A stretch of 64,000 nucleotides of DNA from Pyramidobacter piscolens W5455. Its GTDB lineage: Bacteria; Synergistota; Synergistia; Synergistales; Dethiosulfovibrionaceae. The position numbers and the translations under genes are program-made. The notes under the pieces are model-generated. The model worked only from the letters and a program-made list of their open reading frames with translations, was not told where the DNA came from and did not search any database. The DNA lies in NCBI RefSeq assembly GCF_000177335.1, contig NZ_ADFP01000051.1, forward strand, positions 1 through 64,000. Reading direction: 5' to 3'. Below, in pieces: positions 593-15,794 of the stretch (positions are counted from its first letter, which is position 1; every line of letters starts with the position of its first letter).

Positions 593-2164
593 TCAGTCAT
601 TGACTGTGTTCGTCATTATCCCCCCATCCGTCGGTACAAAAATATAGAGCCGCTTCGTCATCGTTTTCCGTCTTTCCAGCTTGTAGCCATAGCTCAGCAA
701 GTCCAGCTCATGTCTTTGAACGGCCATCCCCATACTGCGCGGACTATCCGGCAAACTGCGCTGCTCCTGTGGTGTGGAAAACTCCAACATCTTCCTGAAA
801 ATGTCTTCCGCCGTCCCCTCGCCGTCAAAACGGGCAACAGCCAGAATGGCCTTCATCACCGGATCGTCGGCCGTCACGTCCAGCCGCGCCTCTTTCTGCG
901 AAGCGATCAAAAGGCGCTGGAACGTGCCCTCTTCCCACGGGAACACACCGGCCCGCTCAGCCGCCGTTACGGCCTTTACCGCGTCGCCCATGCGGTGATC
1001 TACGCCGCTTACCTCGTCTCTATATCTCAGCACAGCGCTCAGGGCGTCGCATATCACGCGCATGAGAGCCGGAGCCAGTGTGTCAAAGGCCGCCTGCATC
1101 TCGCTGCGTGTGCGTCTCTGGCCGCCCTCGAACGGTCGCAGCTCGATCTGGATAACTCGCTCTGCTAAGTCAGAACGCCGCAGCTGGAGCGCGATGCCGT
1201 TGAAGATCAGGCTGCTATGAAGTCGGATGCTGACCGTCCCCACGTTCGTGTACAGCTTGCGCATGGACACCGTCGCCCCCGTAGCGATACGGCAAAACGT
1301 GTCTGACAGTTCTGATTTTATGCTGGTGAGGTTGTCCGCTACGAAGACGCGCCGGTCAGCGCACACAGCGGCGACGTCAGCTTCCCGCTCCGGCGGCTTG
1401 CTCGTCAGCTCGCCGGGGTCGGTGAGTGCTTGAAGCATCTCCGTGAGGAACGTCTTGCCCGTGCCCTGTCCGCCAGTGATGGATAAGCCAACGCGGTCGC
1501 AGCGGTCGCTCAAAAACGTCTGGAGCATCCAGCCGCACAGCAGCTTGAAATCGTCATCCGAAACATTTGGAACGAGCTGTCGGAATAACATGGCGTCCGG
1601 CTTCTTGTCGTCCCTGACGGGCCGCGGATAAGGTCGCTGGCCGTCGATGCGGCGGAACAGGATACCTTTGTCGGCAAGCCGCGTATCGCCGGGCACGATC
1701 TTCCACGTCCCCGGGCCGATCTCTATCACGTCGCGCGTGTCGTCGCCGATATCGATATAGATGAAGCCGTCTCTTTCAGCCACGCGAAGCGCTGTCGTGA
1801 CCTGTCTCCCGGTCATCGTCGCCTCCGACCACAGGGCGCGGCGCGCGTCGTTGAGGCATGTAAGCGTGGGCACGTAGCCCTCGGTGTTCTCAGAAGCGCT
1901 CATGAAAAGGTGCGTCATGTAGGCTGTGACATGCTCAGACGCTAGCGGCCACGACTCCGTCCGGTCGACCTGCCCATTGCCGTCCCTGTGAGGGATACTG
2001 ATCACAAAGCCTGATGCGGTATCCTGGTACACGATCGCTCCGTCCTCATCTACAAGACGCTTCAGCGTGCTGGCCGCGGCGTCAGCCCGGAATGCCGCTC
2101 CAGGCCGTGCCGTATTGTCACGACTGTGCGCCATGTAGGCGCTGAAAGGGCCGGCGCTAGGCAT
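593..2164 (-). CDS. P4/D5-type replicative helicase (SF3-like)
   Basis: A 523-aa protein with a Walker A motif GGQGTGKTF near residue 230 and a Walker B-like segment (RRVFVADNL) about 45 residues later, followed by an ELR-RVIQIEL region typical of D5/primase-C-terminal AAA helicases of phages and satellites. Such proteins unwind the element's origin. The start ATG overlaps the stop of the prim-pol gene upstream (ATGCCTAG) and follows GGGGAG, so the two are translationally coupled. Its stop lies against the iteron array. Walker motifs are seen; the helicase role is inferred from family and context. Confidence 0.8.
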   Translation of the reverse strand: MPSAGPFSAYMAHSRDNTARPGAAFRADAAASTLKRLVDEDGAIVYQDTASGFVISIPHRDGNGQVDRTESWPLASEHVTAYMTHLFMSASENTEGYVPTLTCLNDARRALWSEATMTGRQVTTALRVAERDGFIYIDIGDDTRDVIEIGPGTWKIVPGDTRLADKGILFRRIDGQRPYPRPVRDDKKPDAMLFRQLVPNVSDDDFKLLCGWMLQTFLSDRCDRVGLSITGGQGTGKTFLTEMLQALTDPGELTSKPPEREADVAAVCADRRVFVADNLTSIKSELSDTFCRIATGATVSMRKLYTNVGTVSIRLHSSLIFNGIALQLRRSDLAERVIQIELRPFEGGQRRTRSEMQAAFDTLAPALMRVICDALSAVLRYRDEVSGVDHRMGDAVKAVTAAERAGVFPWEEGTFQRLLIASQKEARLDVTADDPVMKAILAVARFDGEGTAEDIFRKMLEFSTPQEQRSLPDSPRSMGMAVQRHELDLLSYGYKLERRKTMTKRLYIFVPTDGGIMTNTVND

Positions 2165-3317
2165 TGGACTGCTCCCCGCTCATGGCCAGCTGGAGCGTGC
2201 GCCGCCGGTAGTCCTCGCGCTCCCACTTGCCGCGGTACAGCCCTGAGCGTCGGAAAAGGCGATCCACCTGCCCGGCGTCGCTGGTATAGCACGCCAGCAC
2301 GCCGCAGAGCGCCAAGTCTGCCTCGCTCTGTGAGCTGTACACGCTCTGCCAGTCGCCGCTGAACAGCTGCCGCCTCGCCTCTCCACGAGGGCGTTTGCCG
2401 CCGTCCACGTCGCGCTCCAGCGCCTCTTTCAGTACCTCGTCGTCGTCGTGCGGCGTCTGAGCAAAGGCGGAGCGTGCACAGTGCCCGTCGGTCGGCATGG
2501 CGGCTGCGTGTCGCAGCTCGTCAAAGATGAAGCGCTTGAAGGCCTCGGCCATGCCCTGACGCTCAGCTACGGGCCGCGGCTTTCGGAAAGACCGGCCCGT
2601 GACGGTCATAAAATGGCAACCGTACATCTCCACGCCGCCCCAGCGCTGGCCTTTCAGGAAGGGCGCTTTGTCCGCCACCCTGAACACTATGTGCAGCCCC
2701 TTGCCTGAGACGCTCCTTTCCGTGTAGGTACAGAACTCGCGCACGGTATCGTTCACGAGCGCCCGACACTCAGGTATGACGCCCCGCCCGCCGTCGTTCA
2801 AGCAGCCGTCCATGTCGATGAACACATAGGGGTCGTTCTCTGTCATACAGAAGGCGACGCCATGCGCCTTCCCTGCCTCGTAGAGCGCCCACGCGGCCTC
2901 AAAACTGCTCCACGTGCTGGCGTCCGTTGAAGAGGCATGCCGCTCCGGATCGTGAACGCAGAACAGCCGCTTCCCCGGCTTGCCCTCGGCGTTCTTTCTC
3001 GTCATGTCCCAGCTCCACGCTACCCACTGCGGCAAGGCCTTCAGCTCTTCGGGAATACCGTCGAGCTTTGGCCGCAGGAAGGGTACGGGGTCGCCCAGGT
3101 AGTAACGTGCCACAGGGCGCACGCCGCCGCAGTCAATGCTTTCGCTTTGGATGTTATAGCCTGCTTTCCGCAGCTCGCAAACACGAGTGGGAAGGTTCCA
3201 AATGTGGAAGTTTTGAAGCGCCTCTTCCCGCGTCAGACTTCTGCCGCTCTGGAGGATCGCCAGCACGAGGCCGCGCTGGTCGGTAGCCGCCGCGTAGTCA
3301 ATGCCCTGCGCGCTCAT
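2157..3317 (-). CDS. AEP-type primase-polymerase with N-terminal HTH
   Basis: A 386-aa protein. Residues about 5-55 form a winged-helix-like domain (RGLVLAILQSG... VCELRKAGYNI) found in phage replication genes. The rest looks like an archaeo-eukaryotic primase/polymerase: acidic FIDMDG motif, then SGKGLHIVF (the sGxGxH nucleotide-binding motif). It resembles the NrS-1 phage polymerase group. The start at 3317 is chosen because a perfect AGGAGGT lies 6 nt upstream; an ATG further upstream lacks one. It overlaps the stop of the upstream small gene and the start of the helicase gene. It probably primes and copies the element from the nearby origin. Confidence 0.8.
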   Translation of the reverse strand: MSAQGIDYAAATDQRGLVLAILQSGRSLTREEALQNFHIWNLPTRVCELRKAGYNIQSESIDCGGVRPVARYYLGDPVPFLRPKLDGIPEELKALPQWVAWSWDMTRKNAEGKPGKRLFCVHDPERHASSTDASTWSSFEAAWALYEAGKAHGVAFCMTENDPYVFIDMDGCLNDGGRGVIPECRALVNDTVREFCTYTERSVSGKGLHIVFRVADKAPFLKGQRWGGVEMYGCHFMTVTGRSFRKPRPVAERQGMAEAFKRFIFDELRHAAAMPTDGHCARSAFAQTPHDDDEVLKEALERDVDGGKRPRGEARRQLFSGDWQSVYSSQSEADLALCGVLACYTSDAGQVDRLFRRSGLYRGKWEREDYRRRTLQLAMSGEQSNA

Positions 3318-3802
3318 GCCGCCACCTCCTGCCGGGAAAAGGGTACAAAAAAACGACCACAAGACCCCGCGCCGCTATGCAGCTGGAGTTGTGCTCGCAC
3401 TGTAGGTGATACTATAGATTTTCCCTGCTCAAACTCTACGGCGGCACAGCCCCGACCAAAGTTGGCAAGCGCTGGACGCCTAAAGCTATGTCTGTGACAG
3501 TCTCCTTCCCCTTGTCCTCCATCCCCATCGTCTGAACCGCCGCCGTCGTCGCCGGAGTCTGCACCCTGCTCGACATGGGCACGCACAGCCTCTCTGCGCA
3601 CACGCACGCGAACCGGCGTAAAGCGCCGCAGCTGTGCGCGCGCAGCCTTCACAGCAGACCGCAGGAACGGCATCGGATCGGCCGCGGCGTCAAGGCCCGC
3701 CACGTCTTTGAACACGGGGGCGCTCCGCGAGGGAAGGACTAAGACGCGGCTCACGCGAGCGCTTACAGCCCTCCTGAACTCAACGTTATTTTGGAGTTGC
3801 AT
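3314..3802 (-). CDS. Hypothetical protein, first gene of rep operon
   Basis: Not recognised. A basic N-terminal half is followed by an acidic Gly/Asp-rich linker (around residues 95-115) and a short C-terminal tail. The stop overlaps the prim-pol start (ATGA). Two starts are possible: ATG 3802 with AAAGG 6 nt upstream, or ATG 3832 with AGAAGGAAGG 11 nt upstream. The 3832 site is covered by the probable antisense RNA, so the start choice matters for regulation. It may be a replication accessory or purely a leader cistron. Confidence 0.55.
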   Translation of the reverse strand: MQLQNNVEFRRAVSARVSRVLVLPSRSAPVFKDVAGLDAAADPMPFLRSAVKAARAQLRRFTPVRVRVRREAVRAHVEQGADSGDDGGGSDDGDGGQGEGDCHRHSFRRPALANFGRGCAAVEFEQGKSIVSPTVRAQLQLHSGAGSCGRFFVPFSRQEVAA

Positions 3803-3825
3803 TTTCAACCTTTTTACGCTATAAT
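3797..3825 (+). promoter_or_regulatory. Sigma-70 promoter of antisense RNA
   Basis: TTGCAT (3797-3802), 17-bp spacer, perfect TATAAT (3820-3825). It points to the + strand, inside the 5' end of a minus-strand gene. No + strand protein gene follows, but a T8 terminator does. Confidence 0.65.
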
Positions 3826-3831
3826 TATTCA

Positions 3832-3895
3832 TATAAAAAACAACCTTCCTTCTAATTGACCGCCATCAGGCCCGTGCCTGAGCGGTCTTTTTTTT
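3832..3895 (+). ncRNA. Candidate antisense RNA over rep leader
   Basis: A transcript of about 64 nt is predicted from the + strand promoter (start near 3832) to a rho-independent terminator: GACCGC (3858-3863) and CAGGC pair with GCCTG and GCGGTC (3882-3887), followed by eight T. The RNA contains CCTTCCTTCT (3844-3853), the exact complement of the AGAAGGAAGG ribosome binding site of the minus-strand leader gene. This is how counter-transcribed RNAs limit plasmid copy number. The sequence elements are seen; the function is inferred. Confidence 0.6.
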
Positions 3896-3899
3896 GTCC

Positions 3900-4118
3900 T
3901 CACGCCATCATCAACGGCGCGCCCCGGTCGTCGGCGATCATAGCACGCGGTACACCGATGCACGCAGATACGCCCACCAATTCGTCATTGGTCAAGTAGC
4001 GACTCCTATCCCCCCTCTCAAAATTCCTGTACCGTGCCGCGTCAATGCCCGTCTGCTCCGAGACCGCCTTCACCGAAATATCACGCCGCATACGTTCGAA
4101 CTTTGCCACTGTCAACAT
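3900..4118 (-). CDS. Small XRE/Cro-CI family repressor
   Basis: A 72-aa single-domain protein with a helix-turn-helix: KFERMRRDISVKAVSEQTGI followed by a recognition-helix region. The start follows GAGAGGTGA at good spacing. It sits between the rep operon and the edge of the element and probably controls lysogeny-like or replication genes. The AT-rich region 4119-4254, with the palindrome GCAATTGC near 4164, is the likely operator/promoter region. Confidence 0.75.
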   Translation of the reverse strand: MLTVAKFERMRRDISVKAVSEQTGIDAARYRNFERGDRSRYLTNDELVGVSACIGVPRAMIADDRGAPLMMA

Positions 4119-4254
4119 TTTTCACTCACCTCTCTTTCGTACTTTTATACCATATATAGAGCAATTGCGCAAGAGTTTTCCACTAAATAAGGCACTCCAT
4201 AAACCTTCCTTTTTGTGGTAACATGAGTAATCATACGGATCAAGGAGGTGAGTA

Positions 4255-4329
4255 ATGGATAGTCAGAAAAATATAATTTTTATTAAATGTAGAGACTCAA
4301 GGCGCAACACAGGAATGTTTACAACTTGA
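4255..4329 (+). CDS. 24-aa ORF with perfect SD, possible gene remnant
   Basis: AAGGAGGTG lies 5 nt before an ATG that opens only 24 codons (MDSQKNIIFIKCRDS... to TGA 4327). It is divergent from the XRE repressor. A ribosome binding site of this quality on so short an ORF suggests either a real small peptide or the 5' end of a gene cut off at the element boundary. Confidence 0.35.
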   Translation: MDSQKNIIFIKCRDSRRNTGMFTT

Positions 4330-4367
4330 AATACACGTTCGGCTTCCCAGCAGCAACTGATTCATAC

Positions 4368-4424
4368 AAAAAAGCGCCGGAACGCAGTCCATGAACAACA
4401 TACATGGAAACGTTCCGACGCTTT
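4368..4424 (-). terminator. Terminator after tRNA-Ser(CGA)
   Basis: A 14-bp stem (AAAGCGCCGGAACG with CGTTCCGACGCTTT, one mismatch) carries a small inner stem CCATG/CATGG in its loop. On the minus strand it ends in a T-run, so it terminates the tRNA transcript. Confidence 0.8.
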
Positions 4425-4436
4425 GAAATCACTGCA

Positions 4437-4526
4437 TGGCGGAGGGAAGAGGATTTGAACCCCCGAGGGGCGTGAACCCCTGGCTGATTTCGAGTCAGCT
4501 GCCTTCGACCACTCGGCCATCCCTCC
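4437..4526 (-). tRNA. tRNA-Ser(CGA)
   Basis: A 90-nt class II tRNA with acceptor GGAGGGA/TCCCTCC, discriminator G and encoded CCA, a long variable arm, and anticodon loop CTCGAAA (CGA). Its 3' end faces the mobile element on the left, a common integration arrangement. Confidence 0.95.
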
Positions 4527-4565
4527 GCAGACGAAGGGTATTATAGCACAACCCGAAGAGCTTGC

Positions 4566-5066
4566 CTAGTTGTTTCTGCCGTCGAGGAGCCGACCGAACG
4601 AGCGATTTTTCTCCCGGCATTCCCGAAAAAAATCCTGAAGGAGCGCGCGGCATTCCTGTTCCATTACGCCGGGGACGACCTGCAGACGATGAAAAAGACG
4701 CGTGTCGCGCGTTAAATCGTAGAGGGTGCCGCAGGCGCCGGCTTTCGGATCGGTACAGCCATAGACGAGGCGCGAAACGCGCGCTTGAACGAGCGCCCCG
4801 GCGCACATGGGGCAGGGTTCAAGCGTCACGTAGAGGGAACAGCCGTTCAGGTTCCAAACGCCCAGATTTCGGGCGGCCTCACGCAAGGCGACCACTTCGG
4901 CGTGCGCGGTGGGGTCATGTTCAATCCGGCGCCGATTGCGTCCCCTGCCGATGATCTCTCCGCAAGGATCGACCACGAGCGCGCCCACGGGGATGTCGCC
5001 TTCGCGCGCCGCCTGGAGCCCCAGTTCGAGGGCAAGGTTCATGTACTCTTGATCGCTTGTGAGCAT
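4566..5066 (-). CDS. tadA: tRNA adenosine(34) deaminase TadA
   Basis: A 166-aa zinc deaminase that converts A34 to inosine in tRNA-Arg(ACG). Motifs: HAEVVALREA (His zinc ligand and catalytic Glu) and PCPMCAGAL (two Cys ligands). The start at 5066 has GGAGG 6 nt upstream; the reading frame stays open further upstream only through the tRNA-Arg gene and is not used. Its neighbours are two copies of its substrate tRNA-Arg(ACG), a fitting context. Confidence 0.95.
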   Translation of the reverse strand: MLTSDQEYMNLALELGLQAAREGDIPVGALVVDPCGEIIGRGRNRRRIEHDPTAHAEVVALREAARNLGVWNLNGCSLYVTLEPCPMCAGALVQARVSRLVYGCTDPKAGACGTLYDLTRDTRLFHRLQVVPGVMEQECRALLQDFFRECREKNRSFGRLLDGRNN

Positions 5067-15695: not shown

Positions 15696-15794
15696 TGGCG
15701 GAGGCGTGTGCGAATCGAACACACCAAGGACGATCAGAATCGCCCCTCACGCGGGTTTGAGGCCCGGGGCAGCCACCGGACTGCATCCGCCTCC
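15696..15794 (-). tRNA. selC: tRNA-Sec (UCA), selC
   Basis: A 99-nt tRNA with an elongated acceptor (GGAGGCG.../...CGCCTCC plus G-CCA), a long D stem with TCCGGTGG loop as in E. coli selC, anticodon loop CCTCAAA (TCA) and a very long variable arm. These are the marks of bacterial selenocysteine tRNA. The organism therefore should decode some UGA codons as Sec; no selenoprotein gene is evident in this window. Confidence 0.93.

Follow-up and report, generated by a model that had tools for sequence, protein, structure and literature searches.

Does the replication operon at one end of the window (the whole stretch of 64,000 nucleotides from Pyramidobacter piscolens W5455 that was analysed, contig NZ_ADFP01000051.1) carry an antisense RNA of its own, and if so, on which gene would that RNA act and in what kind of element? 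The operon runs on the minus strand in the order XRE regulator, ORF172, HTH_39-primase and helicase-like gene, followed by the start of terS, which runs off the contig. Its first gene encodes a small XRE/HTH regulator of 72 aa (3900-4118; HTH_3, E 0.0021, below the curated cut-off). The second, the proposed target gene ORF172 (3314-3832, 172 codons), appears low-complexity, has few relatives, and gave no credible match when its profile was compared with PDB and Pfam. By profile matches the primase (2157-3320) combines an HTH_39 winged helix and a primase with an NrS-1 polymerase-like helix-bundle domain, and the helicase-like replication protein (593-2164) matches the phrog_1156 DNA primase (E 4e-4), with DUF5906 below cut-off. 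The fragment of terS (small terminase subunit; 1-67), also on the minus strand, is cut by the contig end and aligns over 98 bp, at 88.8% DNA identity, with the terS region of a related locus (L006), whose own terS copy is phrog_4102 (E 3e-27).

In the window the stop codon of ORF172 and the start codon of the primase overlap as ATGA, and relatives show a similar overlap, which suggests that the two genes are translationally coupled. The first-pass annotation had taken the gene beneath the RNA to be the first of the rep operon; that has to be amended, as ORF172 comes second, after the 72-codon XRE gene, and its tie to the primase gene is only the apparent coupling. Divergent from the operon, on the plus strand (4256-4330), a short ORF (MDSQKNIIFIKCRDSRRNTGMFTT) served by a strong ribosome site, AAGGAGGTGAGTAATG, lies between the XRE promoter region and a tRNA, and is conserved in two related loci (L006 and L008).

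A promoter and terminator opposite to the operon

On the plus strand, in the gap between XRE and ORF172, a -35 box TTGCAT (3797-3802) and a -10 box TATAAT (3820-3825) are separated by 17 bp and followed by an intrinsic terminator (3858-3895), composed of a hairpin at 3858-3887 with the stem GACCGC..GCGGTC and a T8 run at 3888-3895. The -10 box lies inside codons 3-5 of ORF172 and is invariant in the five Pyramidobacter copies. The -35 box keeps TTG and is otherwise weak (3/6 positions match the consensus), and a strict consensus promoter scan did not call the promoter. The predicted RNA of ~64 nt (3832-3895) folds into a C/U-rich, single-stranded 5' tail of 26 nt, the terminator hairpin and a U8 tail, at -20.1 kcal/mol (z = -5.1). 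Within that tail, CCTTCCTTCT (3844-3853) is fully complementary to AGAAGGAAGG, the Shine-Dalgarno sequence of ORF172, 11 nt before its ATG (3832-3830 on the minus strand). Promoter, terminator and plus-strand RNA layout were thus where the first-pass annotation had put them, as was the complementarity to a ribosome site, and its claim of a dedicated antisense RNA is borne out at the level of sequence; such an RNA is very probably made from this element. Covariance models from Rfam returned only tRNAs and chance matches, and none at the unit, in the window (E up to 1) or in the relatives (gathering cut-off).

The position of the 3' end bears on what the RNA might act upon. The adjacent upstream regulator would be an obvious target, since the OOP RNA of lambda acts in this way on cII according to the literature, and the XRE transcript might then be cut at its 3' end by RNase III. 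We regard this as very improbable: in the window the predicted RNA stops before reaching XRE, 4 nt from its stop codon, and shares no coding sequence with the gene, whereas the OOP terminator lies ~50 nt inside cII. An antirepressor as target, as in the ant/sar pair of P22, is a further reading, for and against which nothing was found.

An integrated PICI-like satellite

The surroundings of the operon indicate that the window holds one end of a PICI-like satellite integrated in tRNA-Ser, helper-phage induction and packaging being putative. A 71-bp att repeat lies in the 3' part of the tRNA-Ser gene (4435-4505), and an identical copy is found at the end of another contig of the same genome (G000:C69:36426-36496), where the flank matches the left flank of a homologous element in a sister genome (G005). 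That element is fully assembled and spans 10.0 kb between 71-bp tRNA-Ser repeats, with genes for an integrase, Fic, an antitoxin-like protein, terS, a primase, an HTH_39 protein, an ORF and XRE, and no capsid genes were seen in its 10.0 kb. The PICI features of an integrase, a specific att site, a small size and no capsid genes are therefore read from the G005 copy; the window copy shares both att repeats, and its integrase end lies outside the assembly. The packaging gene terS, present in some PICIs, is found here as well. As to a master regulator of the Stl/Rpr or AlpA type known from PICIs, what is seen is a small XRE gene, first in the rep operon and on the opposite side of the element from int.

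PICI origins consist of two sets of iterons flanking an A+T-rich stretch, after the primase/rep gene (PMC6092414). The window element has the same arrangement in a putative origin (304-590) just 3' of the helicase gene, between it and terS, with ATGGCGACC iterons at 304-420, inverted GGTCGCCAT iterons at 499-590 and an A+T-rich stretch at 421-480 between them. Of the suggestion that the element replicates as a plasmid or satellite, the satellite half holds, with a replication module of its own, while the plasmid half does not, since the element sits integrated in tRNA-Ser between att repeats. Short repeats of other sequence that are candidate iterons also occur in two related loci, where they are coding repeats, read through in the 3'-terminal part of the primase gene (CGTAAC at 2726-2890 of L006; TTGCAACG at 4214-4351 of L008). 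Two more integrase genes in the window contig (window 14074-15399 and G000:C51:17184-18044) mark further integrated elements, one of the two lying close to a tRNA-SeC gene (15696-15794).

The unit in other Pyramidobacter elements

Five Pyramidobacter copies were compared, namely those of the window, G005, a second element of the window genome on contig C8, G004 and G001; one relative is a contig of Pyramidobacter sp. C12-8. The window and G005 have only 3218-4598 and the terS start in common, and their primase modules differ. In the C8, G004 and G001 elements the N-termini of the ORF after XRE are unrelated to ORF172 and the hairpin is a different one (GACCGTTCCCGG..CCCGGCGAACGGTC), and the gap nevertheless keeps the unit, with an antisense-strand terminator beside XRE and a TATAAT within the opening codons of the gene that follows. 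The C8 element (L008 923-1139) adjoins tRNA-Lys and has its own, different predicted antisense RNA; its XRE gene is frameshifted by one base in a G run, for which reason this copy may be decaying or mis-assembled. A peptide-pattern search with XRE, ORF172 and the primases among IMG/VR viral and GTDB contigs returned only Pyramidobacter sp. C12-8 and an element of the G010 type.

Recurrence across the Synergistota

Among 188 Synergistota genomes, this XRE protein turned up only in Pyramidobacter. Further elements were collected by primase and HTH_39 searches, taking loci with a small HTH gene directly upstream. Counting the window, and across hosts from five families, the unit keeps its position and strand in 14 elements, five of them in Pyramidobacter and nine in other genera (genomes G010, G071, G028, G123, G073, G035, G132, G051 and G055). 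In all 14 the antisense promoter stands 8-110 nt upstream of the antisense terminator, in a gap of 44-94 nt after XRE. Individual promoters range from TTGACT-18-TATCAT in G035, with a hairpin CCGACAGC..GCTGTCGG-T7, through TTGACG-17-TATTCT in G051, where a 30-codon ORF separates XRE from the unit, and TTGCTT-17-TATGAT in G071, to TGC-TATAAT in G010, whose element lies between two tRNA-Gln copies and has an integrase. The unit is absent from four loci that these searches also returned (L072, L074, L075 and L061), the first three belonging to one genus and having the HTH_39 gene right after XRE.

Between genera, XRE proteins mostly share 15-35% identity, and thus the position and strand of the unit are kept without its sequence: units of different genera cannot be aligned, and the hairpin stems differ in sequence between element types while their pairing stays. 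The predicted RNAs are 49-89 nt long and begin between -16 and +10 of the target start codon, so that each covers the ribosome site; the predicted 5' tail is fully open in 5/14 and mostly forms small stems in the others.

The codons of the target gene that coincide with the -10 box spell [NDY]-Y-[ST] in eight elements. All of the first two, [NDY]-Y, codons over the box end in T (16/16), against a usage of 35-38% in these elements, which points to selection on the DNA beyond that on the protein alone; counted by lineage, the figure is 12/12 in six lineages (p about 5e-6). This choice of codons also bears on a reading in which the terminator, the strongest and most constant feature of the unit, just keeps stray antisense transcription out of XRE and the -10 matches upstream are incidental. 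That would leave the codon choice in eight elements and the promoter matches at a similar distance in 14/14 without a role, and we consider it improbable.

Two further loci resemble the unit. A differently organised tRNA-Ser element (G034; L059 6579-6804) has an antisense promoter and terminator before its primase. A search of phage and plasmid records for relatives gave weak terS matches, and HTH_39 matches in Burkholderia phages and in Pasteurella phage Pmp11, where the HTH_39 gene lies between CII and O and a hairpin with a T run follows right after CII on the antisense strand. Its weak OOP-like unit (L102 2445-2545, antisense score 16.5) was left out of the count.

Scoring against background

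A scored scan looked for a promoter and then an intrinsic terminator within 8-110 nt. It was designed after several units had already been noticed, and its figures are accordingly supportive and no blind test. The window unit scores 28.0, more than any other promoter-terminator pair on either strand of the 64 kb, and exceeds 118/118 random segments and 100/100 shuffles. On the antisense strand of the gap, 13 of the 14 elements score 19.9-29.6; the fourteenth, G123, is missed as its T tract begins with AA, and reaches 24.9 under a looser T-tract rule. The sense strand of the gaps downstream of XRE yielded no score in any of the 14 elements with the same scan. A score of 19.8 was reached by 7/1,551 random segments of the same loci, and 2/1,300 shuffled gaps reached the observed score. 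As a positive control, the scan was applied to lambda, where OOP (22.8) ranked above all other antisense units in its region, with the -10 box of its promoter on the O start codon.

A harder control was provided by gaps between same-strand ORFs, 5/27 of which score at least 19.8 (four distinct loci, including one real tRNA gene and one two-way terminator), and for this reason the scan score is no proof by itself. Set against this ORF-gap background (4/26), the units (13/18) are still enriched (Fisher, p 2e-4). A chance meeting of promoter-like and terminator-like sequences would be in keeping with this intergenic background, with the weak -35 box and with the silence of the strict scan, and is made extremely improbable by recurrence in 14 elements with diverged sequence. 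Top score and recurrence in relatives together confirm, as far as sequence can, that the promoter-terminator pair of the window goes beyond chance.

A proposed brake on replication

We infer that the RNA is made and acts by pairing, with replication as the output. Its promoter lies within ORF172, near the start of the gene, and would direct transcription towards XRE. On the joint mRNA of XRE, ORF172, primase and helicase, the open 5' tail would anneal to the Shine-Dalgarno sequence and the start region of ORF172 and so prevent ORF172 from being translated. Primase and helicase would be lowered as well, given the ATGA overlap between the end of ORF172 and the beginning of the primase gene. We hold it to be probable that the RNA acts by such pairing, with a polar effect on the coupled primase; that ORF172 is the rate-limiting factor is our assumption. 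Together with XRE, the presumed repressor of the operon promoter, the RNA would restrain the element at two levels, holding the integrated satellite silent and, after excision, limiting how far it replicates.

The main rival to pairing is interference between promoters, in which polymerases from the antisense and the XRE promoter run into each other, so that less transcription extends into ORF172 and the primase, the RNA itself mattering little. It owes this rank to the literature on lambda pO, where it was proposed and is favoured over an action of the RNA on replication: inactivation of pO raises read-through from pR and lowers replication, and OOP RNA has little effect in trans (PMC3985674). 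The geometry is also that of pO/OOP, with an antisense start at the first replication gene and a stop near the upstream regulator gene. Interference needs no transcript that ends before XRE, however, and the unit is very short and has a strong terminator; moreover, every element examined has its Shine-Dalgarno region covered by the complementary tail. We therefore judge interference unlikely as the main effect, and retain pairing as the preferred mechanism.

Satellite replication control is usually put down to repressors, activators and helper-phage inducers. The unit looks like a general, so far undescribed replication brake of phage-satellite-like elements and, as far as Rfam and the literature searched show, it provides the mobile elements of the Synergistota with a first candidate class of regulatory RNA. 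If conserved, it would mean that chromosomal satellites use the circuit of regulator gene, antisense RNA and rep gene known from plasmids and lambda, and it would offer a simple handle on the silencing, copy number and co-residence of satellites. The window genome has two elements (contigs C51 and C8) whose antisense tails and hairpins differ. It is conceivable, and we put it forward tentatively, that a phylum-wide class of antisense RNAs determines both copy number and incompatibility of PICI-like satellites, each with its own RNA specificity; satellites that differ in their RNA could then live in one cell, and satellites with an identical RNA would exclude each other.

Comparison with known systems

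Antisense RNAs on replication operons are of a known kind; in PICI-like satellites or in the Synergistota, none was found in Rfam or in the literature searched. Neither CI of P4, a same-strand RNA, nor the IIR transcript of PLE lies antisense, in cis, to the ribosome site of a rep operon. Both resemble the window RNA in being regulatory non-coding RNAs of phage satellites that are complementary to leaders, to several of them in the case of IIR (PMC7567579).

OOP of lambda and lambdoid phages is likewise short and antisense, has an intrinsic terminator and lies between an HTH regulator gene and the first replication gene, and it starts at the O start codon as the window RNA does at that of its target. 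In contrast, OOP ends inside cII and acts on it, whereas the window RNA ends before XRE; lambda is moreover a complete phage, and the target genes are unrelated.

The likeness to plasmid counter-transcribed RNAs drawn in the first-pass annotation is apt, as pMV158 and R1 share the order of repressor gene, antisense RNA and gene leading into rep. In pMV158, RNAII (48 nt) is a single hairpin with an open 5' tail of 17 nt, through which it binds, and a U-rich end (PMC4485353). The window RNA has the same three parts, and in both cases a small repressor gene is followed by a gap with the oppositely transcribed RNA and by a replication gene. The two RNAs have no sequence relation, and the settings differ, pMV158 being a free rolling-circle plasmid and the window element integrated. 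The pMV158 regulator CopG is a ribbon-helix-helix protein, where the window element has an HTH regulator; neither a CopG-type repressor nor a RepB rolling-circle initiator was found in that element, which has the HTH regulator, primase and helicase instead. RNAII targets the initiator itself and is placed immediately upstream of atypical initiation signals, whereas the window RNA covers a normal Shine-Dalgarno sequence and would target ORF172, apparently coupled to the primase.

CopA of R1, in the order copB-copA-tap-repA, overlaps the gap of repressor, leader gene and rep, and blocks a leader frame coupled to rep (PMC5717011). The RNA of the window likewise lies in the gap and would block a frame translationally coupled to a replication gene. 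R1 is a theta plasmid with no sequence relation to the element, and Tap is a leader peptide, as against target proteins of 172-260 aa in the Synergistota elements. With tail binding known from pMV158 and a coupled leader frame from R1, each part of the proposed pairing mechanism thus has a precedent.
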